Below are positions 35,410-54,022 of a stretch of DNA of 64,000 nt, piece by piece. The notes below the pieces were generated by a model. That model had not been told where the DNA came from. It saw only the letters and a program-made list of their open reading frames with translations, and ran no database searches. The stretch lies in the NCBI RefSeq assembly GCF_004924335.1, contig NZ_CP024633.1, positions 3,038,001-3,102,000 of the forward strand, read 5' to 3'. A program made the position numbers and the translations under genes. Source of the DNA: Mycobacteroides salmoniphilum. GTDB taxonomy: Bacteria > Actinomycetota > Actinomycetes > Mycobacteriales > Mycobacteriaceae. Numbering within the stretch: position 1 is the first letter of the stretch; each line of letters starts with the position of its first letter.

Positions 35410-36348
35410 CTAATCCCACCAGAAACTCCACGTTCGCGCGCCGGTGATTCCCCGCGCGTAGGCACTCAACGTGCCCACGCCCTGATCGATGTTGTCGGAG
35501 CAGAACCCGTAGTGTTCATAGCCAACCGGCACCGACAGATCGGCACCTGGCGGACGCGTCACCTCCACGTCGATGGCATCGAAGTCCACCGTCGTCAGCA
35601 CCGCCCCAAACCGGTCCTCCCACGATCGAAGAACGGCCGACAGCTCCGCCTCGGAAATGTCGTAATTCACACCGTGAGTCCAACCCAGGGCATTGAGCGC
35701 ATCGGCCGGACGCGCCGTAGGTACCAGAATCAGCAGCGAGCCCTGCTCCAGTCGATCGGCGGTCACCGGGAGCGCACGCTGGGGCGGCTGAGTGCGCTGC
35801 TCCAGCGTGATAGGCGCCACCGGTACGTCGACGGCCGCAGGGTCGGAGTCGGCCGATGAGACCTTTTTGGCAAGAAAGGATTTGGCGTCGACCGCGCCGA
35901 CGTCGGCGGGATCAGTGAAGTACCGGAGGTCCTCGGGGTCCGACCATGGCCGACGCAGATCCCCACTCAACCCACGGGATGCCAAGGGCCACAGCCCTGT
36001 TCGGTCGAATCGGCCCGCCAACCGCAACCAGAGTGACTGGATGTCAACCACCGTGGCATTGCTCACCCAGGCGAGCGAACGGCCTGTCGGACTGACAATC
36101 AGGTGCCCTTCGGGCAGCTTGATGCCGTCCACGCTCCACTGAGCGGCATTCTCGGGACGAGGCAGCTGACCCGTGCGCTCGGCATGCACCGGCACCAGAA
36201 GTTCGGCGTAAGCGGGCAGATCATGCGCGGGTTCGGGATTTCCCACAATCGCGCGCGTACTCCAGTAGGCCTGTCCGAACAGGTACGACAGGCCGAGCAC
36301 GAGGACGGCGACGATTGCGCTCAGTGATATCCACCCTTTTGACCCCAC
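35410..36348 (-). CDS. membrane-anchored DUF4253 protein
   Basis: A 312-residue protein with one N-terminal helix (LSAIVAVLVLGLSYLFG) and an exported DUF4253 domain at the end (LRSWEDRFGAVLTTVDFDAI, VTRPPGADL, EHYGFCSDNIDQG, final WSFWWD). Function unknown. GTG start at 36348. Its 5' end is duplicated at 37825-37859, beyond the DUF2236 gene. Confidence 0.82.
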   Translation of the reverse strand: MGSKGWISLSAIVAVLVLGLSYLFGQAYWSTRAIVGNPEPAHDLPAYAELLVPVHAERTGQLPRPENAAQWSVDGIKLPEGHLIVSPTGRSLAWVSNATVVDIQSLWLRLAGRFDRTGLWPLASRGLSGDLRRPWSDPEDLRYFTDPADVGAVDAKSFLAKKVSSADSDPAAVDVPVAPITLEQRTQPPQRALPVTADRLEQGSLLILVPTARPADALNALGWTHGVNYDISEAELSAVLRSWEDRFGAVLTTVDFDAIDVEVTRPPGADLSVPVGYEHYGFCSDNIDQGVGTLSAYARGITGARTWSFWWD

Positions 36349-36397
36349 CCACGCAGATTAGCTGAGTGACCAGCTTCGCGATTGATCAGCGGCCGGG
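36314..36397. repeat. junction repeat A, copy 1
   Basis: Matches 37825-37908 in direct orientation, with the core GCAGATTAGCTGAG identical. The first 57 bases differ at about 8 positions and the next 27 at about 9. It contains the real 5' end of the DUF4253 gene and a degraded copy of the 3' end of the secreted GPL-repeat gene. Confidence 0.85.
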
Positions 36398-36423
36398 TTG
36401 AAGCCTGCGGCCCGGCAACCTGA

Positions 36424-37533
36424 TTAGCTGGAAGCCACCATCCCGTTCGTCTCATCTATGGGCGCATTTTCTCGCGTGGCGCGACGGGCCCGGTTTTCCC
36501 GGAGTGCCTGCTGTGCGGACTCCAGGGTGATGTTGCGTGGATCGATCCCTTCCCGCTCAAAGCCTCTCACCGCAATCGGTAAGTAGAAAAACTTCAGCGG
36601 GAGGAGACGCTCGAGAACCGCGTAGCACCGCCGATGCATATCCATAAAGCGGCGCAACATCTCCTCGTCCTCGGGGGTCCACTCTAAATTGAACAGCTCC
36701 CGCACATGAGGCGGATAACTGCTGACAACGACCTGTCGTCGCCCCACCAGCCAGGGCCACACAAATTTCTTCATGACCGACGGCCACCACCGCGGCGCCA
36801 GGCGGCGCTCCAGAAATTGGTCCAGCATGACCTGAGTTACCTGCGAGTTCACCAAATGGTTATGCTCGATGTTGTCCAGATACCGCTCGAAATCATCGTA
36901 TGTATCCGGCTGAGGACTATCGTCCACTCCCCATATGCTGTACCACTCCTTGGACTCCTCAAATATCTGCTCCTTCATTGCCCGTGGCATGGACCCGGCA
37001 AAGTACAGCTGCTCGATCATTATTATCAAGTGGTAATAGAAGAAGGTGACGTGCGCGAAATAGAAGGTTTCCGCATTCAAAGCATGAAACGTGCCTTCCT
37101 GCAGTGCGCCTTTGACGGACTTATGCATATTCCGAGTCTTCAGTCCGTATTTCTTCGCATCTTCCGGAGCGTCGTATACCGAGCCATAAATGTACTCACG
37201 GGATCTCTGACGCCGTATCTTGTATATCTTGGCACGTGCGCCGAAAGAACTGTCACCATTGAAAAGAACAGAACCCGCAGTCGCTCTCCCCATCTGCGGC
37301 CACGCCCCCGCAATGGGACCCAACACCCCGCTACCGAAATACATCACATCAAGGCGGCCCCAATACTTCCATATCAGGGAACCAGCAGGAATCGGATGCT
37401 GACAAAGGTCTTTCCGTGACAAACTGTTGTCGCCGGTAAATTCTTTCACCCTGACGTCTTCCGGAATCACCAGCTCTGGATCATATGTTGTCTGCATGAT
37501 CTTCTTGAATGCCTTGATACCCCGGACCACCAC
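36424..37533 (-). CDS. DUF2236 (oxygenase MpaB-like) protein
   Basis: A 369-residue protein of the DUF2236 family, which includes the latex-clearing-protein/MpaB type of heme oxygenases. Supporting signs are GSGVLGPIAGAWPQMGR, HALNAETFYFAHVTFFY (His-containing helix) and an Arg/Trp-rich helical body. The GTG at 37533 has AAGGAG 6 bases upstream. Codons such as ATA, AAA and TAT are commoner than in neighbours, suggesting foreign origin. It is the only gene of cassette A. Confidence 0.8.
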   Translation of the reverse strand: MVVRGIKAFKKIMQTTYDPELVIPEDVRVKEFTGDNSLSRKDLCQHPIPAGSLIWKYWGRLDVMYFGSGVLGPIAGAWPQMGRATAGSVLFNGDSSFGARAKIYKIRRQRSREYIYGSVYDAPEDAKKYGLKTRNMHKSVKGALQEGTFHALNAETFYFAHVTFFYYHLIIMIEQLYFAGSMPRAMKEQIFEESKEWYSIWGVDDSPQPDTYDDFERYLDNIEHNHLVNSQVTQVMLDQFLERRLAPRWWPSVMKKFVWPWLVGRRQVVVSSYPPHVRELFNLEWTPEDEEMLRRFMDMHRRCYAVLERLLPLKFFYLPIAVRGFEREGIDPRNITLESAQQALRENRARRATRENAPIDETNGMVASS

Positions 37534-37824
37534 GTCAAACTCCTTGCGTTGCCGACACCCACTACTTGGTTAACCTCAGCGCCCGGCCGTTCACACACCC
37601 AGCCTCGGATAGCTGCTCGGCTACCCCCATCACATGACCACCGCCATCTTGACTGTGACTCACTTCGCATGGGAAAGCGATGATGCTCCCGGCGGCACCC
37701 AAAATCAAGGGAGGTACGGATGGTTTCGGAGCAGGCCGAATCAAAGAGCGTACGAATGGTTGTTAAACGGCTCGATGGGGGAATCAGAATGGTCGGCGAT
37801 GACGCGGATCGCGCCGCTGCTGGA
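37534..37824. other. non-coding stretch upstream of DUF2236 gene
   Basis: About 290 bases between the DUF2236 start and repeat copy 2. It should hold that gene's promoter; no clear box was recognised. An 80-codon rightward frame (37634-37876) lacks a ribosome site and any recognisable family and runs into the repeat. Confidence 0.5.
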
Positions 37825-37908
37825 ATTGCGCTCAGCGATACCCGCGCTTTTGACGCCGCCCCCGCAGATTAGCTGAGCGACTAATTCCCGGGTTGATCGA
37901 CGGCCGGG
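37825..37908. repeat. junction repeat A, copy 2
   Basis: Direct-repeat partner of 36314-36397. It holds the true 3' end of the secreted GPL-repeat gene plus a decayed fragment of the DUF4253 5' end (GTCAAAAGC, GCTGAGCGCAAT). Confidence 0.85.
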
Positions 37909-38441
37909 GCCTGATCGTCCGCAGGCGGAGTAGCGGGGCACTTGCCGGTGCCGACGGGGTGCTGGTTCTGCATCGACGCCAGCGTGCTGTCCGGGATGAC
38001 CCCGGCGAACCTGTCCGTCACGGACTTCAGCAGCCCGCCGGACCCACACATCTCGTTGAGCGGTGATACCGGGCTGGTAGGTGACAACACGGGACCATCC
38101 GTCGACAGCGGACCACCCGCCGCCGTCAAAGGGCCGTTAGCCGATAACGGGCCATTGGGAGAGAGCAACGGCCCGTCCGCGGAAAGCGGACCACCCGCCG
38201 CTCCCAGGCCGGCGACCGGCGCTGGCAGCCCAGCCGAGAGCGCGTCGCTGGCCACCGATGGGCCCACCGCAGTCTTCGCACCTCCCGGCAGCAGGCTTGC
38301 CACGGGCGACGACGGCGCGGGCGGTGCCGGCGCATCCCCATCATCGGCCAGAGCGAGACCGGCAGCAGCAACCGATACCGCGCCAGAAGTCACGGCCACC
38401 ACTACCGCTTTACACCACATGACCAGCAGCCTAAGCGCCAT
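37881..38441 (-). CDS. secreted Pro/Gly/Ala-rich protein with GPL repeats
   Basis: A 186-residue protein with a signal peptide (about 1-32, ending GLALAD). Residues about 80-125 are a short tandem array of units such as GPLSADGPL, GPLSPNGPL, GPLSANGPL and GPLSTDGPV. The end has two Cys (MCGSG and GKCPA). No enzymatic motif is seen; it may be wall-associated. The ATG directly follows the stop of the hydrolase upstream (TAA-ATG), so the two are coupled; an ATG at codon 8 is possible. Confidence 0.78.
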   Translation of the reverse strand: MALRLLVMWCKAVVVAVTSGAVSVAAAGLALADDGDAPAPPAPSSPVASLLPGGAKTAVGPSVASDALSAGLPAPVAGLGAAGGPLSADGPLLSPNGPLSANGPLTAAGGPLSTDGPVLSPTSPVSPLNEMCGSGGLLKSVTDRFAGVIPDSTLASMQNQHPVGTGKCPATPPADDQAPAVDQPGN

Positions 38442-39332
38442 TTAGCCGATGTGCTGGCTGAGCCAGATGGTGAGGCGCTGCCAGGCATCCGCTGCCGCGC
38501 CAGGGTTGTAGCGCGGGCCACTGTCGTTGAAGAAGGCATGGTCGGCGCCGGGTTCCACGACGATCTCGTGAACCAAGCCCGCCCGCTGTAACGCCGCGGC
38601 CGCCTGGTCCCTCGACGAGGTGACCCGCTTGTCGAGCTCACCGTAGAAGGCGAGAACGGCCGCCTTCGACCGCGAAAAGTCCGGAGCATCAGGAAGCGGA
38701 CCATAGAACGGGACAACCGCTCCGAGCCTCGGCTCCCCCGATGCTAAGAGCTGCCAGATCAGGCCACCACCGAAGCAGAATCCCACCGCGCCGGCGGGCT
38801 TGTCGGGCACGCGGCGCAGAATTTCGTCCACGCCGGACTTCAGATCCGCGACGAAACGTTCCGGCGCGATCTCGCCCAGTGCTCCTGTCGCCTCGGCCGG
38901 GTCCTTGAACGTCGAGGTGCCGCCCTCCTCCGACAGCAGGTCAATGGCCAGCGACGAATATCCGACGCCCGCAAGCCGTCCCGCGACGGAACCAACCCAA
39001 TCATTGAGGCCCTTGTTCTCATGGATAACCAGCACCGAGCCGCGCGCCCGCGCCGCCGGTGCCCATGCCCCCTGGAGCGTGCCGTGGGGTCCGCTCCAGG
39101 TAATCGGCTCCGTCGCGACCGCCTTGTCCTTACCCGGAGGCGACGGTGTGGACGCTGACGTCGGAGCGGCGACAGGTTTGTCGTCGCTGCCGCAGGCCGC
39201 GATGAGTGCGCTGGCGGCGGCGGTGCCGACGCCCAGGAGTGCCAGCCGGCGTATGGCCTCACGGCGCGTCAGCAGTCCCTCGACATGGTCAGTGGCGATC
39301 TCTTCGACGATGTACCGCTGCAGCGGGGTCAT
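38442..39332 (-). CDS. dienelactone hydrolase-family lipoprotein
   Basis: A 296-residue alpha/beta hydrolase with an N-terminal twin-arginine-like export signal (TRREAIRRLALLG) ending in lipobox LIAAC, so it is probably a Tat-exported lipoprotein. The catalytic triad is visible as Cys in GFCFGGG, Asp in YGELDKRV and His in GADHAFFN. Substrate unknown. It is coupled to the GPL-repeat gene downstream. Confidence 0.85.
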   Translation of the reverse strand: MTPLQRYIVEEIATDHVEGLLTRREAIRRLALLGVGTAAASALIAACGSDDKPVAAPTSASTPSPPGKDKAVATEPITWSGPHGTLQGAWAPAARARGSVLVIHENKGLNDWVGSVAGRLAGVGYSSLAIDLLSEEGGTSTFKDPAEATGALGEIAPERFVADLKSGVDEILRRVPDKPAGAVGFCFGGGLIWQLLASGEPRLGAVVPFYGPLPDAPDFSRSKAAVLAFYGELDKRVTSSRDQAAAALQRAGLVHEIVVEPGADHAFFNDSGPRYNPGAAADAWQRLTIWLSQHIG

Positions 39333-39385
39333 GACCAGAAGTGTGCGCCCGATAGGTAAACGCGCGCTGTGGATTACCTGGACGG

Positions 39386-39931
39386 TTACAGAGATCCCAG
39401 CTCTAACCGCGTTCCCCCGTACTTACGGGAGGACACCTCCCAACCATCCGGCCACACCGCCTCCGGGCCCGACGCGTCACGCTCGAGCACCACAAGAGCC
39501 TCGTCGTTGACCCAATGATCGGTCAGGCGTGACAACAGAGCCGAAACCTCCTCGGCAGAAACCGAATACGGTGGATCAGCAAGGACCAGATCGTAGGCAC
39601 GGTTGGGCGATGTCGACAGGAACGCCGATACCGCAGACTGCCGCAGCTCAGTACCGGGCAGGCCCACCGTCGCGATATTGGCCGAGATCACCTTCGATGC
39701 GGCGGCGTTCGACTCCACGAACGTCACGTGTTCCGCACCGCGTGAGAGCGCCTCAAGGCCCAGCGCACCGGAGCCTGCGAACAGATCAAGGACCGCGATC
39801 CCGTCGAAGTCCAAGCGCGCCTGCAGCATGCTGAACAGCGCCTCCCGCACCCGATCCGTGGTGGGCCGGGTTCCCTTAGGCGGCACCGCGATCCGGCGTC
39901 CGCCCGCGGCACCGGCAATGATCCGGGTCAG
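39386..39931 (-). CDS. rsmD: 16S rRNA (guanine-966-N2)-methyltransferase, CTG start
   Basis: Methylates G966 of 16S rRNA; 181 residues from the CTG. It has the SAM site LDLFAGSGALGLEALSRG and the catalytic ADPPYS. The first usable GTG (39886) would remove the conserved TRIIAGAAGGRRIAV start seen in RsmD proteins. The CTG at 39931 restores it exactly and lies in a CTGA overlap with the pyc stop. If CTG is not used, the enzyme would be 166 residues and lack part of its RNA-binding N-terminus. Confidence 0.9.
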   Translation of the reverse strand: MTRIIAGAAGGRRIAVPPKGTRPTTDRVREALFSMLQARLDFDGIAVLDLFAGSGALGLEALSRGAEHVTFVESNAAASKVISANIATVGLPGTELRQSAVSAFLSTSPNRAYDLVLADPPYSVSAEEVSALLSRLTDHWVNDEALVVLERDASGPEAVWPDGWEVSSRKYGGTRLELGSL

Positions 39932-42900
39932 CTGATCACCACCAGCAGATCCCCACCCTCGACCTGAGAGGTCTCGGTCAACGCCACCCGCGCCACGGTT
40001 CCCGCCTTGGGCGCGGTGATGGAGGCCTCCATCTTCATGGCCTCGATGGTGCCAATGGTCTCCCCCGCAGTAACCTCCTGGCCCGACACCACATTGAGCG
40101 TCACCACGCCCGCGAAGGGCGCGGGCACATGATCGGCATTGGTCCGGTCGGCCTTCTCCGCACTGGCCACTGCGCTGTCGATGCTCCGGTCACGCACCTG
40201 CACGGGGCGTAGCTGACCATTGAGGATGCACATGACGGTCCGCATACCGCGCTCGTCGGCATCCGAGATCGCCTCGATCCCGATGAGCAGCTCGACGCCC
40301 TTCTCCAGCTTGACGCGGTGCTCCTCCCCGTACCGCAGGCCGTAGAAGAATTGGTTGGCCGAAAGCCGTGACGTGTCGCCGTACTGCTCGCGGTGGGCCA
40401 GGAATTCCTTGGTCGGACCGGGGAACAGCAGGCGGTTCAACGCTGCCCGCCGCGTCGCGCTGTCGCCATCGAGCTGTGCCGCGTCATCGGGCGTGAGCTC
40501 GACCTCCGCACGCGCGGGACCGCGACCTTCGAGTGCGCGCGTTCGGAACGGCTCGGGCCAGCCGCCGGGCGGGTCACCCAGCTCCCCGCGCAGGAATCCG
40601 ATCACCGACTCCGGGATATCGAAACGACCAGGATCCGAGGAAAATTCGTCGGCACTCACACCCGTACCCACCAACGCCAGGGCCAGGTCGCCGACCACCT
40701 TCGAGGACGGGGTCACCTTGACCAGACGTCCGAGCATCCGATCGGCGGCGGCATAACGTGCCTCGATCTCCTCGAACTGGTCCCCCAGGCCCAACGCGAT
40801 CGCCTGCTGGCGCAGGTTCGACAGCTGCCCACCGGGGATCTCGTGTGTGTACACCCGGCCCGTCGGTGACGGGAGCCCTGATTCGAAGGGGGCGTATACC
40901 TTTCGCAGCGCTTCCCAGTACGGCTCCAGATCGCACACCGCGGTCAGTGACACTCCGGTGTCGTACTCGCTGTGCGCGGCCGCTGCCACGATCGCCGACA
41001 ACGACGGCTGGCTGGTGGTTCCGGCCATGGGTGCCGCAGCGCCGTCCACCGCGTCGGCCCCGGCCTGCCAGGCCGCCAGGTAGGTCGCCAGCTGCCCACC
41101 CGCGGTGTCATGGGTGTGCACATGCACCGGCAGGTCGAACCGGGAGCGCAGTGCCGTCACCAGAGTCGCCGCCGCGGGCGGACGCAACAGGCCCGCCATG
41201 TCCTTGATCGCGAGCACATGTGCACCCGCGTCGACAATCTGCTCGGCAAGCTTGAGGTAGTAGTCCAACGTGTACAGGTTCTCGCCGGGGCTGGACAGAT
41301 CGCCGGTGTAACACATGGCGACCTCGGCGACCGAGCCGCCGACCTCACGCACGGCGTCAATTGCGGGGCGCATCGCCTCGATATTGTTGAGCGCGTCGAA
41401 GATTCGGTAGATGTCTACCCCGGTCGCGGTCGCCTCGCGAATGAACGCCTTGGTCACCGTCTCCGGATACGGCGTGTATCCCACAGTGTTTCGGCCACGC
41501 AGCAACATCTGCAGGCAGATGTTCGGGACGGCTTCACGCAGCTCGGCAAGCCGCTCCCACGGATCTTCCTTCAGAAAACGAAGCGCCACATCGTAAGTCG
41601 CGCCACCCCAGGCCTCGATCGAGAGCAACTCGGGAGTAAGCCGCGCCACGTACGGCGCGACCGCGAGCAGGCCGGTAGTGCGCACTCGAGTGGCCAACAG
41701 CGACTGGTGCGCGTCACGGAAGGTGGTGTCGGTCAGACCGACCGCCTTCTGCTCCCGCAGCGCCTTCGCGAATCCCTCGGGCCCCAGCGCCAATAGCCGC
41801 TGGCGCGAACCATCCGGCGCCGGTGCCGACAGATCCACCGCCGGCAACTTGTCATGCGGGTACACCTTCGAGGGCTTGGCCCCGTGAGGTTTGTTGACCG
41901 TGACATCGGCCAGGTAGTTCAGGATCTTCGTGCCGCGGTCGGCCGAGGATCGCGCCGTCAGCAGCTGCGGGCGCTCCTCGATGAATGAGGTCGTGACATG
42001 TCCCGACCGAAAGTCCGGGTCGTCCAGAACCGCCTGGAGGAACGGGATATTCGTGGCGACACCACGGATACGGAACTCGGCGACGGCGCGGCGGGCTCGC
42101 GCCACCGCGGTCTGGAAGTCCCGCCCGCGGCAGGTCAGCTTCACCAGCATGGAATCGAAATGCGCGCCCACCTCGGCACCCAGCGTCGTCCCACCATCCA
42201 GGCGGATACCCGCACCGCCCGGGCTGCGGTAGGCGGTGATGCGGCCGGTGTCTGGGCGGAACCCGTTGGCCGGATCCTCGGTGGTGATCCGGCATTGCAA
42301 GGCGAACCCGCGTGGCGGCGCCAACGTATCCTGATGCAGACCAAGGTCGTCCAGCGTCTCGCCGGAGGCGATGCGCAGCTGACTCGCCACCAGGTCCACG
42401 TCGGTGATCTCCTCGGTCACCGTGTGCTCCACCTGAATCCGGGGATTCATCTCGATGAAGACGTGACGACCGCGCTCATCAAGCAGGAATTCGACGGTGC
42501 CCGCGCAGCTATACCCGATGTGACGCGCGAAAGCGACAGCGTCCGAACAGATCTGCTCGCGCAGCTCGGCAGGCAGGTTGGGCGCAGGGGCTAGCTCGAT
42601 GACTTTCTGGTGGCGCCGCTGCACGCTACAGTCACGCTCGTAGAGGTGGATGACGTTGCCCGCGGTGTCCGCGAGGATCTGCACCTCAATGTGCCGAGGA
42701 TTGATGACGGCCTGTTCCAGAAAGACCGTCGGGTCCCCGAATGCCGACTCCGCTTCCCGGCTGGCCGCCTCGATCGCCTCGCGCAGCTGCTCGCGCTCGG
42801 CGACCCGGCGCATGCCGCGGCCACCACCACCGGCGACCGCCTTGACGAATACCGGAAACTCCATCGCCTCGGAGGCCGTCAGCAGCTCCTCGACCGAAGC

Positions 42901-43314: not shown

Positions 43315-43337
43315 AGTCACAGACCGTACCGTGAGGA

Positions 43338-43361
43338 TTCAGCGAACGCGCGTCCGCTGAA
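43338..43361 (-). terminator. hairpin between the VKOR gene and pyc
   Basis: TTCAGCG and CGCTGAA form a perfect 7-bp stem around a 10-base GC-rich loop, just downstream of the VKOR gene. There is no T run. It may end the esterase-DsbA-VKOR transcript. Confidence 0.4.
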
Positions 43362-43375
43362 CTTCACAATTCGGT

Positions 43376-45785: not shown

Positions 45786-45791
45786 GACGTA

Positions 45792-45814: not shown

Positions 45815-45820
45815 GCCGGT

Positions 45821-46705
45821 ATGGATATCGGCATTGCCCTGCCCTTCATGTGCCGGCAGTACACCCGCGAGTCGACCATCACCTGGGCCCGCCGCGCCGA
45901 GGAGGGAGGGTTCTCCACGATCTCCTCCGGTGAGCGGATCTCGTATCACAACCAGGAGATGTGGGTGACGCTCGCGGCAGCGGCGGCGGTCACCGAACGC
46001 ATCCGGATACTCGCGAATGTCTCTGTGCTGCCGGCGCATCCGGTGCCGCTGGTCGCGAAACAAGCCGCGACGCTGGATGTGCTGTCCGAGGGCCGGTTCA
46101 CCCTGGGGGTGGGTGTTGGCGGCCGCGAACACGACTACCGATCGTTGGACGCGTCCTTCGACCGACGCCACCAGCGCCTCGATGACCAAGTCGCCGAGCT
46201 GCGGCGGCTCTGGCGGGGTGAGCCTCCGTTCGAAGGTGCCGACCCAGTGGGCCCCGCACCTGTTCAGGCCGGCGGCCCTCCCATCGTCGCCGCCGCGATC
46301 GGTCCGAAATCGCTGGCCCGCGCGGCACAATGGGCTGACGGCATCACCGGCTTCAGCGTTTCCGGGGCACCCTCCGAGCTTGCCTACTCCGCCGGGGCCG
46401 CACGCGCGGCATGGCAGCAGGCTGGGCATGCCGAACCGCCGCTGCTGTCGAGCGGGTGTTTCTACACGCTGGGGATTCCCGACGCCCAGTCCGAACTCAA
46501 ACAGTTCACCAGCGACTACCTCGCCATCTTCGGACCGCAGATAGCCGAGAATGTTCCGAAGACGTTGACCAACTTCGATGCCGACGCGCTGAACCGCACC
46601 CTCGACGGAGCCGAGGAGGCCGGGCTCGATGAATTCATCCTCGTGCCGGGGGCGTCCGATATCGCGGTGATCGAGGCGACCGTCGAACTCATCCAGACGC
46701 GCTGA
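45821..46705 (+). CDS. LLM-class F420/flavin-dependent oxidoreductase
   Basis: A 294-residue luciferase-like TIM barrel (MDIGIALPFMCRQYTRES, EGRFTLGVGVGGREHDY, PIVAAAIGPKSLARAAQWADG). Substrate and cofactor are not decidable. Predicted leaderless from TAGGCT. Its last 75 bases are found again, diverged, at 48980, beyond the lipase-TetR cassette. Confidence 0.85.
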   Translation: MDIGIALPFMCRQYTRESTITWARRAEEGGFSTISSGERISYHNQEMWVTLAAAAAVTERIRILANVSVLPAHPVPLVAKQAATLDVLSEGRFTLGVGVGGREHDYRSLDASFDRRHQRLDDQVAELRRLWRGEPPFEGADPVGPAPVQAGGPPIVAAAIGPKSLARAAQWADGITGFSVSGAPSELAYSAGAARAAWQQAGHAEPPLLSSGCFYTLGIPDAQSELKQFTSDYLAIFGPQIAENVPKTLTNFDADALNRTLDGAEEAGLDEFILVPGASDIAVIEATVELIQTR

Positions 46706-46707
46706 CC
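46631..46707. repeat. junction repeat B, copy 1
   Basis: The 3' end of the LLM gene. Aligns directly with 48980-49056 with about a dozen mismatches in 77 bases and no gaps. Both copies read GCGTCCGATATCGC and GAACTCATC exactly. Confidence 0.88.
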
Positions 46708-46887
46708 CCGGGTGAGTTGATCGCCCACGCCGCGGGCATTTCCCTCTGCCCGGCAATCGGTGGCAAGCCGGGACGTAGCAGCGAAAGGTCCTCGAACAGT
46801 GTGTGATTCAGATGCCGCCCGAGGAACTTGTCCGCGAGGAAATGACTTCTCCTCTGAAGTTCGCGGTGCAGCGAGGACCCCGCACCA

Positions 46888-46907
46888 ATGAGACAATGGT
46901 GTATCAT
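46888..46907. promoter_or_regulatory. TetR-type operator over the lipase promoter
   Basis: ATGAGAC-N6-GTATCAT, an inverted repeat with one mismatch. TATCAT inside it (46902-46907) fits a -10 box, so a bound repressor would block transcription. The same pattern occurs before the tetR gene at 48879-48898. Confidence 0.65.
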
Positions 46908-46961
46908 TTGAGCCGACTATGGCGCATGCATGGGCGGGTCACGCCCGTTTAAGGAGTTGTT

Positions 46962-48206
46962 GTGGTGTCCATGAATTTTGACCGGAGATGGGGCGCAGTT
47001 GCCGGAGTGCTGATGTTGGCCGGAGCACTGGCGGGGTGTTCCTCGCCTCAATCATCACCGGAGCGGGCACACATGAATTTCCAGGTGAGTACGGATTCTC
47101 AGGGCACTTACGAAGTACCGTCCCCCTTACCCGAAGGCAATCGTGGCGATCTGATTGCCTCGGCCGACCAGGGATCGGACGTGGGCTTAAGGGCGTCGAG
47201 TCGGGTAACCCTTCTCTATCGCTCAGTGAATTCACGGGGACAGGATGTAGTTGTCAGCGGCGTTTTACTGATTCCACACGGAGAAGTACCCGCCGGCGGC
47301 TGGCCACTGATTTCCTGGGCGCACGGAACAGTGGGTATCGCGGACCGTTGCGCCCCCTCCCACTCCCCCACGATGGGTGGCGAATTTAACGGGGAGTACG
47401 TGAAGTCACTATTGAATGCCGGCTACGCAGTCGCGGCCACCGACTATATCGGCTTAGGCACCCCCGGCGATCACACCTACATGGGTGCCATCGACCAAGG
47501 TAATGCCGTGGCCGATATCGTCCCGGCCGTCCGCCAAATCAACCCCCATTTGTCCGAGAATTGGTTCGTCATCGGACACTCGCAAGGTGGGGCGGCAGCA
47601 CTGTCCGCCACACGTGCAGGCGTCAAGGGTCAGCAGCCCAGCGGCCTTAAGGCCGTGATTGCGATCGGTCCAGGCAACTCGGCGGAGAGTGCGCTTCAGG
47701 CGGTGATCGACGGGACGGACACAGACCCATTCGCTCCCGCCCTGGACCTCTTTGTTTTGATCGGGGCCGCCGCCGCCGATCAAAACATACATCTGGAAGA
47801 GATTTTGTCTCCACAAGGACAGAAAATCATGGACGAGGTGCGAAACAATACGTGTCTAGCTGACCTACTGAATAACACAAGAAATCTGCCCGGAGCCGAT
47901 ATCTTTCTTCATGATTCTCAAACCATTGCAGAGTTAAGCCAACGCCTAAAAATATATGGAAATCCGGACAACGGACCTACTAATGGTCCTGTATTAATCA
48001 TTACCGGAGATGCCGACACTATCGTCCCCACGGCCGGCACACTCAAACTTATCGATAGTCTCCGCCAACAAGGGTCGGAAATTGAGGACCTTGTCTTACC
48101 CGGACAGGGCCACATAGAACCCCTCTACGATTCCTTCTGTGAACAACAACAGTTTCTAGCAGCCCATGGCGGTCCGCCGGCACCACCAACCTGCCCAAAA
48201 CGCTAA
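46962..48206 (+). CDS. secretory lipase-family lipoprotein
   Basis: A 414-residue LIP-type (PF03583-like) lipase. Signal peptide with lipobox LAGC (Cys about 26). Nucleophile in IGHSQGG, acid in TGDADTIVP and His in GQGHIEPL. AAGGAG (46951-46956) serves the GTG at 46962 or 46965; an ATG at 46971 is spaced too far. The second half uses AT-rich codons unusual here. It is convergent with its probable repressor. Confidence 0.85.
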   Translation: MVSMNFDRRWGAVAGVLMLAGALAGCSSPQSSPERAHMNFQVSTDSQGTYEVPSPLPEGNRGDLIASADQGSDVGLRASSRVTLLYRSVNSRGQDVVVSGVLLIPHGEVPAGGWPLISWAHGTVGIADRCAPSHSPTMGGEFNGEYVKSLLNAGYAVAATDYIGLGTPGDHTYMGAIDQGNAVADIVPAVRQINPHLSENWFVIGHSQGGAAALSATRAGVKGQQPSGLKAVIAIGPGNSAESALQAVIDGTDTDPFAPALDLFVLIGAAAADQNIHLEEILSPQGQKIMDEVRNNTCLADLLNNTRNLPGADIFLHDSQTIAELSQRLKIYGNPDNGPTNGPVLIITGDADTIVPTAGTLKLIDSLRQQGSEIEDLVLPGQGHIEPLYDSFCEQQQFLAAHGGPPAPPTCPKR

Positions 48207-48297
48207 ACAGGCCTGAGGCTATGTGGACGTGCTCAGAGTGGTTGCCAGTGGTAAGCGAAATCGATAGGCGGCACAGCCAGTATCGCCCACTGACGCC

Positions 48298-48840
48298 TCA
48301 GGGAGTGTTCACCCCATGCAGCATCAGACTGGCGATCATGTGGGAGAAATCTCGGCGGGCGACCCTTCCAGTCTGGATGGCCCAGGCCGCGCCGGTGACC
48401 AGGCTGAAGAAGACTTCGGTAAGCCACACCGCCGTCAAATCGGTACGGAACTGGCCGGTTTTTTGCCCTCGCGCAAACAGCGCGGTGATCTGACCCTCAA
48501 CACCTGAAAAGCCTTCAAGAGTCTCGGGAAGGTCCAGATTCTGATACTGGGCATATATGAGAACCAGTTGGTCTGCTATCGGCTCACAGGCCCCGACCAG
48601 CCGCTCCAAGGCGTCGGTCGCCGAGTCCTCGGTCAACCGCGCTCCGGCCAACGCCGACTCCATACTGGTCACCGCCAGCACGGTCAATGCTTCTATCAAT
48701 GCGGCTCGGCCCACAAAATGTCGATGAAGCGTCGCGCGGCTCACTCCCACCGCCGCCGCGATCTCATCCATGGTCGCCGCCGGCTGTCTACCCAAGAAGA
48801 CAGCCGCCGCATGCAACAAGCTGTCACGGCTCACAGCCAT
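48298..48840 (-). CDS. TetR-family repressor of the lipase cassette
   Basis: A 180-residue regulator. The helix-turn-helix is near residues 24-44 (TMDEIAAAVGVSRATLHRHF). The C-terminal ligand domain is diverged as usual. Operators of the same form (ATGnGAC-N6-GTnTCAT) lie before this gene and before the lipase, so it probably represses both. Confidence 0.88.
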   Translation of the reverse strand: MAVSRDSLLHAAAVFLGRQPAATMDEIAAAVGVSRATLHRHFVGRAALIEALTVLAVTSMESALAGARLTEDSATDALERLVGACEPIADQLVLIYAQYQNLDLPETLEGFSGVEGQITALFARGQKTGQFRTDLTAVWLTEVFFSLVTGAAWAIQTGRVARRDFSHMIASLMLHGVNTP

Positions 48841-48878
48841 TTGCCCTCCCGGTTGCTCCGCGAATAGCGGTATCTCAT

Positions 48879-48898
48879 ATGCGACATAATCGTCTCAT
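48879..48898. promoter_or_regulatory. TetR-type operator upstream of tetR
   Basis: ATGCGAC-N6-GTCTCAT, the same 7-6-7 layout as the lipase operator (46888-46907), with one mismatch between arms. It lies 39 bases before the tetR start codon, consistent with autoregulation. Confidence 0.65.
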
Positions 48899-48979
48899 AT
48901 TCGGCAGGGTTGACTTGGCGTGCTGACACTGGACCCGACCGAACGACGACGGACCCGAAGCAGTACAGGCTCGACGCGT

Positions 48980-49056
48980 TAATTGATCCTCGCGCCAGGG
49001 GCGTCCGATATCGCAGTGATCGAGGAGACGATCGAACTCATCGAGAAGCGCTAGCC
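48980..49056. repeat. junction repeat B, copy 2 (LLM 3'-end remnant)
   Basis: Second copy of the LLM gene's 3' end. In the LLM frame it still reads LILAPGASDIAVIEETIELI then EKR and a stop, but the codon before it is TAA and upstream sequence is out of frame. The cutinase stop lies inside it, so this copy keeps the old LLM-cutinase overlap. Confidence 0.88.
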
Positions 49057-49751
49057 AACTCCGCCGTCGAGGCGATCTGCCGGGCTGCGAAGTCAGCGGC
49101 CTGGTTGGTCATCCCGTTGTCTCCGTAGGAGCCGTGCGCGGTGTTGTCGTTGCCGTCCGGGGAGCAAATCGGATCCTCGGGGTTGCACATGTCGACAGTC
49201 TTGTCCGCGTAGAGGTGCCCAATGTTGATGGGAGGGGCCGTGTTGTCGATACGCTGCAGGAATCCGGTGGACGGCTTGCCGAACAGCGCCACCGCCGCGA
49301 CGTGGTCGGCCACCTCGGGTGGCATCGGCCCGGTGATCCCCTCTGGCAGCTCGAAGCCCGGGGGCACCGCGTCCGCCGTGGTGTAGGCCACCACTGCCGC
49401 ACCCTGCGAGAAGCCACCCAGCACGATCTTGGTGTTGGGGCACCGCGCCGCAACATCCTTAACCCGGTTGCTGGCGTCGATGACACCGTCAGCCGCGGTC
49501 GCAAAGGCCAGGGACGCGGGGTACTCGACGGGATAGACCTCCACCGACTTGCCCTTGGTGCGCGCACGCAGCGCGCTGACGAATGCCTCTCCGGTGCCGC
49601 CGACGCCCGGAGGCTCGAAAGTGCCTCTCGCAAAGACAATCTCAACATCGGGACATGCCGCAGCAGCGGCTGACGGTATGCCAACGGGCGAACTAAACAG
49701 GGCGCACATGACCACAATGGCAAGTAACCAGCCCCACCGAACTCTCTTCAT
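49038..49751 (-). CDS. secreted cutinase-family esterase
   Basis: A 237-residue serine esterase with signal peptide ending SAAAAACP (about 28-33). The nucleophile is in GGFSQGAAV (Ser115), with the Asp region CNPEDPICSPDG and His in DNTAHGSYGDNG. The paired Cys typical of cutinases are present. The ATG at 49751 begins a normal signal; an ATG at 49793 would add 14 residues. Located between cassettes B and C. Confidence 0.9.
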   Translation of the reverse strand: MKRVRWGWLLAIVVMCALFSSPVGIPSAAAAACPDVEIVFARGTFEPPGVGGTGEAFVSALRARTKGKSVEVYPVEYPASLAFATAADGVIDASNRVKDVAARCPNTKIVLGGFSQGAAVVAYTTADAVPPGFELPEGITGPMPPEVADHVAAVALFGKPSTGFLQRIDNTAPPINIGHLYADKTVDMCNPEDPICSPDGNDNTAHGSYGDNGMTNQAADFAARQIASTAELASASR

Positions 49752-49808
49752 CAATGACCACCACCTGTTCGGGCTTCCGTTCCTGTCTATCACAGATTCA
49801 ACGGTTGT

Positions 49809-49890
49809 GGACAGGTCTGCGCCGCCTCGCGGATGGTTTAGGCCGATCGCTCGTCGATCGAAAGATGGTATCCACGAACCACTTCCGCGA
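49809..49890. repeat. junction repeat C, copy 1 (nuclease 3'-end remnant)
   Basis: Aligns directly with 53319-53400 with 8 mismatches in 82 bases and no gaps. On the minus strand it codes AEVVRGYHLS, then IDERSA and an in-frame TAA where the intact nuclease has Arg, so it is a dead fragment. Confidence 0.9.
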
Positions 49891-50040
49891 GACCCGACCC
49901 AGTCAGACCATATTCAGTGAAAATGATGTTGAGCGTCCTTTGCCCGGCGCCAATAGGCTTTCACCAGGGCCACCATAAGCGTTGAACGCCTGTCGAAACT
50001 AGGGATAGCGGCGTGAGCAACATGCCGGCAACGGCGCGCA

Positions 50041-50700
50041 TTACTCCGTAACGGCGCGCGCTGCCCTCAACACTGGGACGAAGTAGGTGACGGCGAAATT
50101 CCTTGCCTCGTCATCCGTCTCCGCGCGAAGAACCTTCGACGGAGCCAGCAAAAGAGTCGCGGTAATCCGCATGATGAGTTCGGCAGCCTGCTTAGCGCCC
50201 GCTTCGGAATACCCGTCCCCCATCAACCGCATGGCGAGAACGGAAAGTGCCACCTGGTAGTTGCCGTGTTCGGTCTCAAACAGTCTCAGCGACATTGATT
50301 CGGCCTCATATTCCTTGAGAGCCGCAACCACCGGATTCACCCGACACTCGCGCATTCCAGTAACGAACACCTCGACAACCTGGTCCTCGACCTTGTCCCC
50401 CAGATCCAGTAATGGCGCCAATTGGAGAAAGAACTGAAGCACCTCACGACCGACGACAGACGACACCATGTCGTCTTTGTCGCCACACCGGCGGTTCAGA
50501 GTCTGTCGAGAAACCTTGGCCCGCTTAGCAATATCCGCCACAGCTGCCCGACGGAAACCGTGCGCGACGAACTCAGCACGCGCGGCATCAAGAAGCCGCT
50601 CTCGCTCGTCATCCTCCGGGGCTACTTGCCCAGAAGACCACTGCGACCACATCGCGCCTAGATCCACAGTCGACAATGTTACCTCTTGACGTAGAGACAT
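50041..50700 (-). CDS. TetR-family regulator of the P450 cassette
   Basis: A 219-residue regulator from the ATG at 50700. The helix-turn-helix is AAVADIAKRAKVSRQTLNRR (about 53-72). It is divergent from the ferredoxin with 25 bases between start codons, filled by a perfect inverted repeat, so it should control both itself and the P450 operon. Confidence 0.88.
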   Translation of the reverse strand: MSLRQEVTLSTVDLGAMWSQWSSGQVAPEDDERERLLDAARAEFVAHGFRRAAVADIAKRAKVSRQTLNRRCGDKDDMVSSVVGREVLQFFLQLAPLLDLGDKVEDQVVEVFVTGMRECRVNPVVAALKEYEAESMSLRLFETEHGNYQVALSVLAMRLMGDGYSEAGAKQAAELIMRITATLLLAPSKVLRAETDDEARNFAVTYFVPVLRAARAVTE

Positions 50701-50715
50701 TGTTACATCTAAAGT
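50686..50715 (+). promoter_or_regulatory. promoter of the ferredoxin-P450 operon
   Basis: TTGACG (50686-50691) and TAAAGT (50710-50715) are spaced 18 bases and predict a start about 4 bases before the ferredoxin ATG. Both boxes overlap or touch the operator. Confidence 0.6.
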
Positions 50716-50725
50716 CCAATGTCTC
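50694..50725. promoter_or_regulatory. TetR operator between tetR and ferredoxin
   Basis: GAGACATTG-N14-CAATGTCTC is a perfect 9-bp inverted repeat. The left arm contains the tetR start codon and the right arm ends at the ferredoxin ATG. Confidence 0.7.
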
Positions 50726-50938
50726 ATGCTAGAACAACTCTTCTCCGTCACCGTCGACGACGGCGTCTGCATGGGAGCCGGCTATTGCTACCGCTCCTAT
50801 CCGCAACTGTTTATGGAGAACGCCGACGGCACGAGCGTCGCGACCGGGACGACCAGTGACGAATTACTTGACGACGCAACTAAAGCCAGCCAGATCTGCC
50901 CCTCGGGGGCCATTGAGATCCACCGCGGAAAGGACTGA
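50726..50938 (+). CDS. 3Fe-4S ferredoxin of the P450 type
   Basis: A 70-residue electron carrier with C15, C21 and C58-Pro, the three-cysteine pattern (C-x2-x-x2-C ... C-P) of actinobacterial P450 ferredoxins. Its TGA overlaps the P450 ATG by one base, so it is the likely electron donor of that enzyme. Confidence 0.92.
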   Translation: MLEQLFSVTVDDGVCMGAGYCYRSYPQLFMENADGTSVATGTTSDELLDDATKASQICPSGAIEIHRGKD

Positions 50939-52497
50939 TGTTGACCACTGCTGCGACCCATTGCCCGCCACACCGCCGCAACGACGATGCTGGAACGGTC
51001 GACCACGCACCTCGGGCGGTGACGTCACCTCGGTGGACCGCTGGCCGTCGCGCGGTGATCGCATCCTTGAAAGACGATCCGTTCTGGCCCACCCGCAAGC
51101 CACTCCGTGCATCCTTCAGCTTGCTCACCGGTCGCGGCCGCGACCGACCAATTCCACCAGGTCCCATCGGATTGCCCTTCATAGGCTCCGCGATTCCTAT
51201 GGCGCGCAACCCGTACAAATTCCTACAGGACTGCCATCGCAGATATGGGGACATCTATCGGGTGCCGCTACCCATACATCCTTTGATCCTGGCCAACCAC
51301 CCCGACCTGGTGAGCGAGTTTATGGAGGACACCGAACTCAAATACAGCATGTCCGCTCCACTCCAAGGCCAGCGAATTCACAAGGCAGTAACGAGCGTGG
51401 GCTGTCCAGTCCAGGTCCTCGAGGGCCAGGCACTTCGCGACAGACGGAAAAAACTCATGCCCATGTTCGGCAAGAAACACCTCGCGGTGGTGTCGGACAA
51501 GTTCGTCGAGGTGTTCTCCGACCGCATCGACCGATGGCTCGCACTCGCTGGTACCGACCAGGAGGTGAACCTTCAAGCTGAGTTGCCGAAGGTCGTGCTC
51601 CCGGCATTCATGTACGCCATGTTCTCGACGAGACTGTCCGATGAAGAAGTCCTGCATGCCGATACCGCGACCCGATCGGTGATGCGCGCCATCGCCTCTG
51701 GATTGTTTCTGGCGACGCCGCCGAACATCTTCCCGCTACGCGGCAAGGAAAATCTGACGGTCTCCGGGGTTCATCTCGTGCGAACCATCCGCAAGATGAT
51801 CCGGGACCGACGTGCCAATCCCACCGATGATGCGGACCTGCTCAACATATTGCTCGCCGGACGCAACGACCCCAGCAACCCGCTTACCGAAGTCGACGTG
51901 TACTCGGAGATCATGTCGGCGATCGGTGGCGGTTACGAAACGATCGTCGCATCGATGTCATGGACGCTGGCACTGCTGCTGCAGCATCCGGAACATCTGG
52001 AGCGTCTCTATGACGAGATCGCGGTTCTTGGCGGCAGCGTGCCGACGCCCGACGATCTACCCAGGTTGCCCTGGGCACGCGCATGTTTCGACGAGGGACA
52101 ACGGCTCCAGGGCGCCCCGATCAACCCGAGATACGCGATGGAGGACACCGAGCTCGGGGGCTACCCCATCCCCAAATACACCTTGGTAGCAAGCTCGTTA
52201 TACGTGGTTCACCGCGATCCGCGGTGGTGGGGCGAGAACGCCGAAGTGTATGACCCGATGCAATTCTTCGATCAAGACCGGGTCAATGCGCGTCCACGTC
52301 TGGCATTCCAGGCCTTCGGCGCCGGACCACACCACTGTATGGGCACTGGTATGGCCTACATGATGGCTCAGTATTTGTTGGCGATCATCTTCCAGCGCTA
52401 TCGCTTGCACTTGCGGCCAGGGTGGCAACCCCAACAATTCTTCAGCTTATCGACGCTAGTCAAAGGTGGCGTGCCCGCCACCATCACCAAAGCGTAA
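50938..52497 (+). CDS. cytochrome P450
   Basis: A 519-residue P450, longer than most bacterial ones (about 400-450) because of an N-terminal extension of about 70 residues before the Pro-rich PIPPGPIGLPFIGSA. Visible are the I-helix GGGYETIVA, the EGQR (ExxR) motif and the heme loop FGAGPHHCMG with Cys467. No membrane anchor is evident. GGAAAGGA precedes the ATG. The substrate is unknown; the family number was not assigned. Confidence 0.93.
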   Translation: MLTTAATHCPPHRRNDDAGTVDHAPRAVTSPRWTAGRRAVIASLKDDPFWPTRKPLRASFSLLTGRGRDRPIPPGPIGLPFIGSAIPMARNPYKFLQDCHRRYGDIYRVPLPIHPLILANHPDLVSEFMEDTELKYSMSAPLQGQRIHKAVTSVGCPVQVLEGQALRDRRKKLMPMFGKKHLAVVSDKFVEVFSDRIDRWLALAGTDQEVNLQAELPKVVLPAFMYAMFSTRLSDEEVLHADTATRSVMRAIASGLFLATPPNIFPLRGKENLTVSGVHLVRTIRKMIRDRRANPTDDADLLNILLAGRNDPSNPLTEVDVYSEIMSAIGGGYETIVASMSWTLALLLQHPEHLERLYDEIAVLGGSVPTPDDLPRLPWARACFDEGQRLQGAPINPRYAMEDTELGGYPIPKYTLVASSLYVVHRDPRWWGENAEVYDPMQFFDQDRVNARPRLAFQAFGAGPHHCMGTGMAYMMAQYLLAIIFQRYRLHLRPGWQPQQFFSLSTLVKGGVPATITKA

Positions 52498-52533
52498 ACA
52501 CCTCACACACAAGCCATCACAGGAAGGAACGCC

Positions 52534-53289
52534 GTGACCAACACCGAGTTGAGGAACCAGGATTCGTACCGTTCGGACTGGGGCATAAAGGCTCCCCCCG
52601 GCCGGGTTCACGCGCCGGTCGCCGAATCCGAAGCACTCGTCGAGCCATTCCTGCGTCGTTGCAAAGAGCAGGAAGACATGTACGTCGCCGCCGGCTTCCC
52701 GCTGGAAGGGATTGCAGAGTTCTGGTGCAAGTGGTTCGCAGCCTGGAACGACGACTCCCCCGAAGCACTCGAGGACTGCTGGGCCGAGGACCTGGTGTGG
52801 ACCATGTCCAACACAGGCCAACTGGAATTTCACGGCCGCAGCTACACCGGAGACTTCGCGCGATTCGGGTATCTGTTCACACGAGAACTCGGCTTTTATC
52901 CGTGGGACGGAACAGACACTCACCTGCCCTATTACGACTTCTTCAACGGTCAGGTACGGGCGGCTTTTCCGTACTCAGGATCTACACGGTTCTTCTGGAG
53001 CAGCACAATCCCGTGGCCGCGCAAGCCGGTTCGCGGCTGTGGTGTCGACAGGTACATCCTCCGCAAGGAGGACGGAGAATGGCGGATCGCGCGGATCGAT
53101 ACCGATCAGGACTTCCTGGCCGCCCTCATGCAGATGCTGCCATTCGCCACCGGAACCACAAAGCTCATAGCGTGGCTTACCCGCACTCTCCCGGTCGTGG
53201 GACGCAGGTTGGGGATTTACGACAGGGAATCTCTCTACAGCCGGGAATACGCGGCAAGCCGAGCGGCGCGAGTGCTGCCCAAGGGGTGA
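52534..53289 (+). CDS. SnoaL/NTF2-like protein, P450 operon
   Basis: A 251-residue protein with a central cone-fold region (AAWNDDSPEALEDCWAEDLVW through WRIARID). It starts at GTG with AGGAAGGA upstream, 36 bases after the P450. It may act on the P450 product or bind substrate; this is inference from context. Confidence 0.75.
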   Translation: MTNTELRNQDSYRSDWGIKAPPGRVHAPVAESEALVEPFLRRCKEQEDMYVAAGFPLEGIAEFWCKWFAAWNDDSPEALEDCWAEDLVWTMSNTGQLEFHGRSYTGDFARFGYLFTRELGFYPWDGTDTHLPYYDFFNGQVRAAFPYSGSTRFFWSSTIPWPRKPVRGCGVDRYILRKEDGEWRIARIDTDQDFLAALMQMLPFATGTTKLIAWLTRTLPVVGRRLGIYDRESLYSREYAASRAARVLPKG

Positions 53290-53311
53290 TCACGACGGCG
53301 TCCCACATTCG

Positions 53312-54022
53312 TCAATGCGGACAGGTGTGCGCCGCCTCACGGATGGTTCTGGCCGATCGCTCATCGAGTGAAAGATGATATCCACGAACCACTTCCGCGA
53401 ACTGCATGGAGTATTGACACCAGAACACCTTGTTCGGCGGCATCCATCCCGAAGGCCCCGCATCGCCCTTGTCCTTGTTCGCTTGCCCTTGCACAGCGAT
53501 GAGATTGGCGGGATCATTGGCAAAGCGCCAGCGCATCGAAGGTTGCCACTCGCGTGCGCCCATGTCCCACGCGTACGCCAACGGAACGATGTGATCGATC
53601 TGGACTGCTTCGCCGCTTTTCGGCCCGCGAGCAAAGGCCACCAACGCTCCCGTGTAGGGATCGTGCAGCATCCCGGCACCCACCGCACTGGGACATCTGT
53701 GCGTGAACACGAAGCTCTTATCGGTCAGGTCGCGGTTCAGGATGTCGTTGCGCGTGTCGCAACCATTGCGTCCACCGGGAGCGTCGGTGTCATCGGACCA
53801 GGCATCGCCGAACTCGGCACGCTGATAGTCCTTGCCTCGCACCCGCTTGGGTATCACCATCACCCCGGCTAGCGGATCTTGGCCGGGAGCCAGAGTCGGA
53901 ATGTTCGATTGCCCAGCAACGACATTGGCACGTTGCAGCCGGTACCGGGCCGAAACCTGGTATGCCACCACCACCGCGATCGCCGCAGCGATCGCGACAA
54001 TGAGCACGGTGCGGTTCCTCAC
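53312..54022 (-). CDS. membrane-anchored DUF1524 (HNH-type) nuclease-like protein
   Basis: A 236-residue protein with one N-terminal helix (TVLIVAIAAAIAVVVAYQV) and an exported DUF1524/GmrSD-type HNH domain: DHIVPLAYAWDMGA, FANDPANLIAVQGQANKDKGD and WCQYSMQFAEVV. Extracellular nuclease activity is plausible. The GTG at 54022 overlaps the recG stop (GTGA). Its 3' end is duplicated at 49809-49890. Confidence 0.87.
   Translation of the reverse strand: MRNRTVLIVAIAAAIAVVVAYQVSARYRLQRANVVAGQSNIPTLAPGQDPLAGVMVIPKRVRGKDYQRAEFGDAWSDDTDAPGGRNGCDTRNDILNRDLTDKSFVFTHRCPSAVGAGMLHDPYTGALVAFARGPKSGEAVQIDHIVPLAYAWDMGAREWQPSMRWRFANDPANLIAVQGQANKDKGDAGPSGWMPPNKVFWCQYSMQFAEVVRGYHLSLDERSARTIREAAHTCPH
53319..53400. 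repeat. junction repeat C, copy 2
   Basis: The intact 3' end of the DUF1524 gene, direct-repeat partner of 49809-49890. The shared block ends sharply at CACTTCCGCGA; beyond it the two loci are unrelated. Confidence 0.9.

Follow-up and report, generated by a model that had tools for sequence, protein, structure and literature searches.

Three accessory gene cassettes between long direct copies of gene-gene junctions in Mycobacteroides salmoniphilum

In the 64-kb window of M. salmoniphilum (the whole stretch of DNA that was analysed), an oxygenase gene, a lipase/TetR gene pair and a P450 gene cluster each lie between two direct copies of a gene-gene junction. A search of the window for direct repeats of at least 45 bp with a spacing of 0.2–12 kb and E ≤ 1e-5 returned three pairs with scores of 76–113 bits and no other such pair: 36314–36397/37825–37908 at site 1 (84 bp, 80% identity), 46603–46703/48947–49052 at site 2 (106 columns, 81%, with an ungapped 72-bp core of 88%) and 49806–49890/53316–53400 at site 3 (85 bp, 89% identity). 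The three repeat-bracketed insertions claimed in the original prediction are therefore real. The features of the three sites are the following:

35410..36348, minus strand: left neighbour of site 1, DUF4253 protein (Pfam PF14062)
36314..36397: left junction copy of site 1, includes the start of the left neighbour (repeat pair and comparison with relatives)
36424..37533, minus strand: cassette 1, single MpaB/Lcp-type oxygenase gene (Pfam PF09995)
37825..37908: right junction copy of site 1, includes the end of the right neighbour (in G163 this copy spans 160 columns)
37881..38441, minus strand: right neighbour of site 1, without Pfam family (Pfam scan)
45821..46705, plus strand: left neighbour of site 2, luciferase-like monooxygenase (Pfam PF00296)
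46597..46734: left junction copy of site 2, 3' end of the left neighbour with worn tail (limits approximate, from the 138-bp overlap against the D16Q14 empty site)
46962..48206, plus strand: cassette 2, lipase-like alpha/beta hydrolase (Pfam)
48298..48840, minus strand: cassette 2, TetR-family regulator (Pfam)
48947..49086: right junction copy of site 2, combining the right neighbour's 3' end with a worn end of the left neighbour (right limit by eye)
49038..49793, minus strand: right neighbour of site 2 and left neighbour of site 3, cutinase (Pfam PF01083)
49806..49890: left junction copy of site 3, spare copy of the 3' end of the HNH gene (repeat pair and alignments)
50041..50772, minus strand: cassette 3, TetR-family regulator (Pfam)
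50726..50938, plus strand: cassette 3, ferredoxin (Pfam, ORF list)
50938..52497, plus strand: cassette 3, cytochrome P450 (Pfam)
52534..53289, plus strand: cassette 3, SnoaL-like protein (matches under curated cut-offs)
53316..53400: right junction copy of site 3, inside the HNH gene 3' end (repeat pair and alignments)
53312..54118, minus strand: right neighbour of site 3, HNH/GmrSD_C-type protein (Pfam)

The cassettes have a low G+C content (55–59% versus 64.4%) and are self-contained gene units of probably foreign origin. The predicted lack of integrase, transposase and tRNA holds for what was scanned, as a Pfam scan of the seven cassette proteins (small overlapping ORFs being left out) detected no domain of an integrase or transposase and no tRNA was found between positions 30000 and 60000. 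Rfam gave no match in 35000–55000, no terminal inverted repeats pair both ends of any cassette, no restriction-modification cargo was detected by Pfam among the cassette genes, and PADLOC assigned no family to six cassette proteins and the HNH neighbour. A transposon or insertion sequence was rejected, since terminal inverted repeats and transposase are missing and the duplications are too long. A phage source was rejected with no match for junction 3 and seven matches of 26–30 bp (E 0.1–0.5) for junction 2, and a plasmid source with two matches to cutinase genes and one further match of 76 bp for a query of cassettes 2 and 3 with the intervening cutinase gene. The alternative that the repeats are dispersed elements was not borne out for sites 1 and 3, whose junctions had only three further matches of 22–28 bp in 10 genomes, in searches that also missed known copies, namely on the left in G326 and G163 and, in worn form, on the right in G185, G104, G108 and G066.

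Comparison of 11 genomes, that of the window and ten relatives, revealed empty sites with a single junction copy at all three places, as the original prediction had expected of insertions, namely in two genomes at site 1, four at site 2 and six at site 3. From these single-copy empty sites it follows that the repeats are insertion-linked duplications of the target, which measure 84, 138 and 85 bp at sites 1, 2 and 3, respectively, and the cassettes appear to be genuine insertions that are gained and lost. The likeness between copies reaches at best 96.5% over 113 bp (G104), and none of the insertions compared is young enough for perfect copies, a point against duplication at the moment of insertion.

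A survey of 464 kb of the same genome for repeat pairs of 40–250 bp spaced 0.5–10 kb apart yielded nine pairs, comprising sites 1–3, a fourth site of this type, and five others (71–191 bp, 67–76% identity) that are taken as tandem paralogues from their spacing and identity rather than case by case. Among the 36 insertion clusters of the survey, an overlap of more than 10 bp was present at sites 1–3 and the fourth site alone, the last with a duplication of 48 bp. As long duplications in this genome have at least 47 bp whereas other surveyed insertions overlap by at most 10 bp, the long duplications seem to form a class of their own, and the idea of a common process gains from this gap and from the fourth case. 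The long duplications vary in length (48, 85 and 138 bp, and 160 bp or more if the reading of G163 is correct). For three of four sites to fall within 17 kb of the 464 kb by random insertion, the probability is 0.015 (0.036 for three of five), which counts against the capture model preferred below, although the place was chosen for its clustering.

In the case of site 1, 160 bp of the right copy survive in G163, so the 84 bp of the window are probably the worn remnant of a longer duplication; the repeat lengths of 77–84 bp given originally are thus probably shortened at site 1 and do not hold at site 2. Cassette 1 is 93.8% identical between the window and G326, and its oxygenase gene 95%, whereas both flanks are 82% identical, and the exchanged tract has its left border near the left junction copy, spans this copy and reaches about 100 bp past the right one. 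The gene tree of cassette 1 conflicts with the core trees. Judged from the sequences, comparison shows that cassette 1 was exchanged between species, and it is for this later spread that interspecies recombination, one of the origins proposed at the outset, finds support. In G163, cassette 1 is joined to a gene remnant and the left copy is absent, the border there differing by no more than about 7 bp from that of the cassette in other genomes. As G326, placed by the trees as the sister of G163, carries both copies, a later deletion is the better explanation of what is seen in G163.

At site 2, comparison with Mycobacterium sp. D16Q14, where the site is empty, gives a duplication of 138 bp; copy-to-copy lengths are 113–135 bp in G104, G108 and G206, and no repeat pair passed the threshold in G185. 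The lipase of cassette 2 is at least 88% identical in five of 396 genomes, the next best match having 61%, and relatives of its lipase and TetR genes are also adjacent to each other in two distant mycobacteria. The five-genome tree of cassette 2 matches two of three core trees, while the third (54200–59000) places the window, G185 and G206 differently. D16Q14 is the sister of the filled G206 and has an empty site with one junction copy, and together with the two agreeing trees this gives good support to a precise loss of cassette 2 in D16Q14, which is thus probable; this site reads as left-type and then right-type sequence, and an ancestral empty site would look identical. In their tails, the left and right copies of site 2 from one clade resemble each other more than they resemble copies at the same position in the other clade, and the right copy of the window has a 31-bp tail of the other clade's type, a pattern that would suit repeated homologous re-entry or conversion as well. 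A foreign-type copy, which the original prediction named as a sign of insertion, finds support in this tail alone, as decay of the unused half suffices elsewhere.

At site 3, the end points of the copies are identical in the window and G259, and the interior of cassette 3 has diverged as much as its flanks. By our own reading of the alignment, the stop codon of the HNH gene lies in the left flank of empty genomes, and the insertion supplied the last few codons of this gene anew. On the same reading the original end of the HNH gene is preserved intact in neither copy, and the claim that one repeat is the true end of a neighbour fails at this site. G326 carries stacked inserts here, with a 30-kb island adjoining cassette 3, in which no integrase was found in the 27 of 28 ORFs scanned, two of the 27 being without Pfam family. 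To the left of this island, sequence resembling a decayed duplicate of the HNH gene end is only suggestive (shuffle p 0.017). At a second locus, G066 holds a relative of the cassette 3 cluster that has neither junction sequence nor flanking repeat and so gives no sign of the junction travelling with the cassette.

The preferred reading, with a probability of roughly 0.42, is that foreign units were captured at gene-gene junctions by end joining at staggered breaks, duplicating about 50–160 bp of target, and that repeat-mediated loss and exchange followed. The two strands would be nicked far apart at a gene-gene junction so that the DNA breaks there, both ends would be filled in so that the junction is duplicated, and a foreign fragment would be joined in by Ku-type end joining. 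Selection would keep those insertions that leave each neighbour with a junction copy of its own, and the two copies would then serve as repeats for clean deletion of the cassette and as homology for its movement between species. We infer staggered-break end joining as the preferred origin of the duplication; Ku is present in 10 of 10 genomes and, being general in the group, gives end joining weak support. In Mycobacterium smegmatis, precise deletion is reported to have increased by a factor of at least 1,000 in the presence of a 38-bp direct repeat, and to have required neither homologous recombination nor end joining nor annealing (PMC3519483), and clean loss is therefore uninformative on how a cassette entered.

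A possible though doubtful alternative is that a circle or fragment with the cassette and one junction copy recombines at a single junction and leaves hybrid copies, the first duplication having arisen once, elsewhere. The clade-wise likeness of the site 2 tails, the other clade's tail in the window, the conflicting cassette 1 tree and the start of its tract near the left copy would all agree with such entry. However, it presupposes a cassette already linked to the junction and so does not explain the origin, just as the circle carrying the junction of the original prediction, taken alone, does not account for the first duplication; the cassette 3 relative in G066 lacks junction and repeat, and a cassette 1 tract running from the left copy to beyond the right one resembles ordinary two-sided exchange. 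Homology-facilitated illegitimate recombination, in which one end is homologous and the other is joined illegitimately past the homology, with sister chromosomes involved, appears unlikely. It would explain copies that are diverged from the start and the abutment of cassette 1 on a gene remnant in G163, but it requires a donor in which the cassette already bordered the remnant of the left neighbour, and the two copies in G326 favour deletion in G163.

Known integrative elements and CIMEs carry cargo between direct repeats at gene ends and stack at one site. The window cassettes share this arrangement, lack a recombinase of their own, and have stacked inserts beside cassette 3 in G326, so that they might be CIME-like remnants with attL/attR repeats and an integrase acting in trans. 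This is nevertheless very improbable: unlike in CIMEs, no integrase was found at the sites in the genomes compared and no common core lies in the repeats, the four duplicated sequences having variable lengths and no shared motif (pairwise shuffle p 0.08–0.83), and two of them have no good further copies in 10 genomes. With no shared motif, no integrase found at the site, including the scanned ORFs of the G326 island, and nothing convincing among phages for either junction searched, the recombinase in trans suggested originally has no support. Just as improbable is a deletion polymorphism, in which the repeats are older and ancestral genes, the present cassettes, were lost from between them. 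Loss between copies probably does occur, in D16Q14, and the equal divergence of cassette 3 and its flanks would fit, but the empty sites are intact single-copy junctions, the cassettes are low in G+C, the cassette 2 lipase is confined at high identity to few genomes, and duplication of exactly the junction would still require an insertion.

Among described systems, insertions in Helicobacter pylori (Nobusato et al., 2000, as described in PMC1643837 and PMC4978471) show, as here, a unit absent in a relative and a long direct target duplication. Restriction-modification genes are frequent but not obligatory in those insertions, whereas oxygenase, lipase, P450 and transporter genes are found here, in a Ku-bearing group in which wear, loss and exchange could be followed over 11 genomes. 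The E. coli H47 genomic island similarly has imperfect direct repeats (148 and 144 bp), no recombinase of its own and excision between the repeats, which was seen experimentally and is RecA-independent (PMC5426353), whereas here excision is deduced from sequences. Small variable segments of E. coli, S. aureus and S. pyogenes are flanked by direct repeats in 10–18% of cases, and 66–94% of these are shorter than 30 bp (PMC2884548), compared with about 48–160 bp here. By their structure, the window cassettes appear to belong with known insertions with long target duplication, adding three further cases and a fourth site.

For many small accessory insertions in bacteria the mechanism is not visible. 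A long target duplication is a clear scar through which insertion points can be found and dated and the repair pathway can be asked about, and mycobacteria with Ku are a good place to ask which pathway made such scars. These scars would also explain near-traceless loss of cassettes and their passage between species by ordinary recombination. As a tentative generalization, mycobacteria may gain genes without an integrase, end joining at widely staggered breaks making mobile units and recombination moving them. If true, long duplications spare the neighbouring genes and make each capture a repeat-flanked, removable and transferable unit.

The three pairs of direct repeats described in the original prediction are present, and they are the sole pairs of their kind in the 64 kb of the window, which belongs to a mycobacterial genome of 4.78 Mb. 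Each pair encloses a cassette at a gene-gene junction (sites 1, 2 and 3), and the cargo and G+C content of the cassettes (64.4% for the window) are as follows.

Cassettes in the window
Cassette 1, to the right of a DUF4253 gene: MpaB/Lcp-type oxygenase; G+C 55.2%
Cassette 2, to the left of a cutinase gene: lipase-like hydrolase and TetR regulator; G+C 58.1%
Cassette 3, between the cutinase gene and an HNH gene: TetR, ferredoxin, P450 and SnoaL-like; G+C 59.4%

In agreement with the claim that the cassettes carry neither integrase nor transposase, no Pfam mobility domain was detected in the seven proteins scanned, and PADLOC gave no match for any of the six cassette proteins submitted. Relatives of the cassette 2 genes (lipase 56-61%, regulator 62-64% identity) lie side by side in two distant mycobacteria; for one of these, the retrieved piece holds no more of the regulator than its first 63 residues. 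The P450 of cassette 3 has matches of at least 89% identity in 5 of 396 genomes, the other matches listed reaching at most 55%. One of these five is the relative G066, where the P450 lies at another locus; a relative of the entire cassette 3 cluster (78% nucleotide identity; L193 7485-10689) occupies a different chromosomal place there, and neither junction sequence nor flanking repeats were found with it.

Nine of 395 genomes of the genus, the window's own not counted, matched positions 45700-47000 at E ≤ 1e-100, and with D16Q14 and the window they make up the 11 genomes compared; the close relatives with names are Mycobacterium sp. D16R12, D16Q13 and D16Q14. Site 1 is filled in nine and empty in two (G259, G236). 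Site 2 is filled in five (window, G206, G185, G108, G104), empty in four (D16Q14, G066, G259, G326) and occupied in the remaining two (G236, L055 1002-2652; G163, L059 893-2549) by another insert, about 1.6 kb long and with no visible duplication, so that this junction has been used at least twice. Site 3 is filled in four genomes (window, G259, G163, G326) and empty in six (G206, D16Q14, G185, G108, G104, G066), and G236 has an insert of about 400 bp. The single junction copy anticipated for empty sites was found, filled sites having two copies, one of them often worn, with the exception of site 1 in G163, where the left copy is gone together with the DUF4253 gene. The end of this loss (L058 9397-9533) lies about 7 bp or less from the cassette border. 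In G326 the cutinase gene is separated from the left copy of site 3 by a 30-kb catabolic island (L057 1640-19000, L194 1-12750), whose genes encode Rieske oxygenases, extradiol dioxygenases, HpaB and aldehyde dehydrogenase, among others; its left end is similar to the insert of about 400 bp in G236, and no integrase was detected in the 27 of its 28 ORFs that were scanned.

The copies differ in length and wear. Window and G259 agree to the base in where the 85-bp copies of site 3 end, the repeat in G326 measures 92 bp (93.5%), and in G163 the left copy is hardly recognisable. Within an 84-bp frame, the window and G326 have the right copy of site 1 complete, and wear has reduced it to 45 bp in G206, 39 in G185, 39 in G104, 34 in G108 and 52 in G066; in G163, 160 columns of it are kept. 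Measured against the empty site of D16Q14, the site 2 duplication is 138 bp; copies in G104, G108 and G206 span 113-135 bp and are 87-96% alike, and no repeat pair above threshold was found in G185. At this site, copies tend to be better preserved in whichever half completes a neighbour: over the left-gene end, with the empty site of G066 as reference, the five left copies show 83-89% identity and the five right copies 77-84%, the G185 pair being an exception (79 and 80% when G326 is the reference). In the 31-bp tail, copies group by clade and not by position, except that the right copy of the window is of the other clade's type and the truncated left copy of G185 matches neither. This pattern points to exchange or conversion.

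D16Q14 is the sister of the filled G206 in both core trees that include it, and its site 2 is empty with an intact junction. The cassette 2 tree, built from five genomes, matches two core trees (31000-34700 and 38450-45700) and conflicts with the third (54200-59000), where the window pairs with G206 and not with G185. Together these observations suggest that cassette 2 was probably present anciently and was precisely lost in D16Q14. In M. smegmatis, 38-bp direct repeats made precise deletion at least 1,000-fold more frequent than background, which was not so in E. coli, and homologous recombination, end joining and annealing were all dispensable (PMC3519483); on that account, precise loss between repeats is to be expected in this genus. 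Interspecies recombination, among the mechanisms originally proposed, is supported for the subsequent spread of cassette 1: window and G326 share 93.8% identity over the cassette, 91.7% over the left copy, 88.1% over the right copy and 92.2% over the next 102 bp, with flank values of 82.4 and 82.6%, and the gene tree unites the two (0.999). Judged by this excess and the tree, cassette 1 was exchanged between the species of window and G326. For M. abscessus, gene flow from lineage to lineage has been described (PMC4756508). The interior of cassette 3 diverges as its flanks do (85% identity to G259, 82% to G163), so that this cassette is old, and its patchy presence implies several losses or recombinational replacement.

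A survey of 464 kb of the window's genome against 434-438 kb of three genomes and 238 kb of two more, counting insertions from 300 bp upwards, yielded 36 clusters, with site 1 counted twice and at least two others apparently double counted. Sites 1-3 and a fourth site show 33-134 bp of overlap in at least one comparison and all other clusters at most 10 bp. The survey took in only places with a gap of at most 40 bp on the empty side, and copies with strong wear would escape it; values of 11, -5 and -10 also came from site 1, in the comparisons that involve a worn right copy. The fourth cassette (genome 3240376-3241893; L069 18376-19893), whose site is empty in G066, has 48-bp copies (94%) that include a hairpin, identified by eye, and its cargo reads as one putative MFS-type transporter gene. 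At a fifth candidate (genome about 3289394-3291930; L072 7394-9930), with no known empty site, a variable stretch is enclosed by the copies of a worn gene-end repeat (some 49-56 bp, spacing 2.5 kb). Three of the four sites fall within 17 kb, which uniform placement would give with probability 0.015 (0.036 if the fifth candidate is counted); the region having been chosen for this clustering, no weight is put on these values. A 24-kb insertion at 3260201-3284245 (L070-L072), of near-equal size in G104 and absent from G206, G066 and G236, has no flanking duplication.

As to entry, the site-specific route by a recombinase in trans that had been put forward found no supporting integrase or motif nor, at the two junctions compared with phages, a convincing attP, and for transposition there was no terminal inverted repeat in support. 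We favour end joining at a widely nicked break as the origin of the duplications, since their lengths vary, their sequences are unrelated and Ku was found in all 10 of 10 genomes: a break with distant nicks would be filled in on both sides and a fragment joined to the ends. In animal cells, breaks with complementary overhangs reportedly yield small tandem duplications, a comparable outcome (PMC8355091). Under end joining, location at gene junctions would need no targeting, because a duplication there keeps both neighbours whole or nearly so. In a limited literature search, judged by titles and the openings of abstracts, no account of such duplication-flanked accessory genes in mycobacteria was found. 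The same pattern, insertion with long target duplication, was named in Helicobacter in 2000, as two later papers state (PMC1643837, PMC4978471), and we file cassettes 1-3 under it as a new case.
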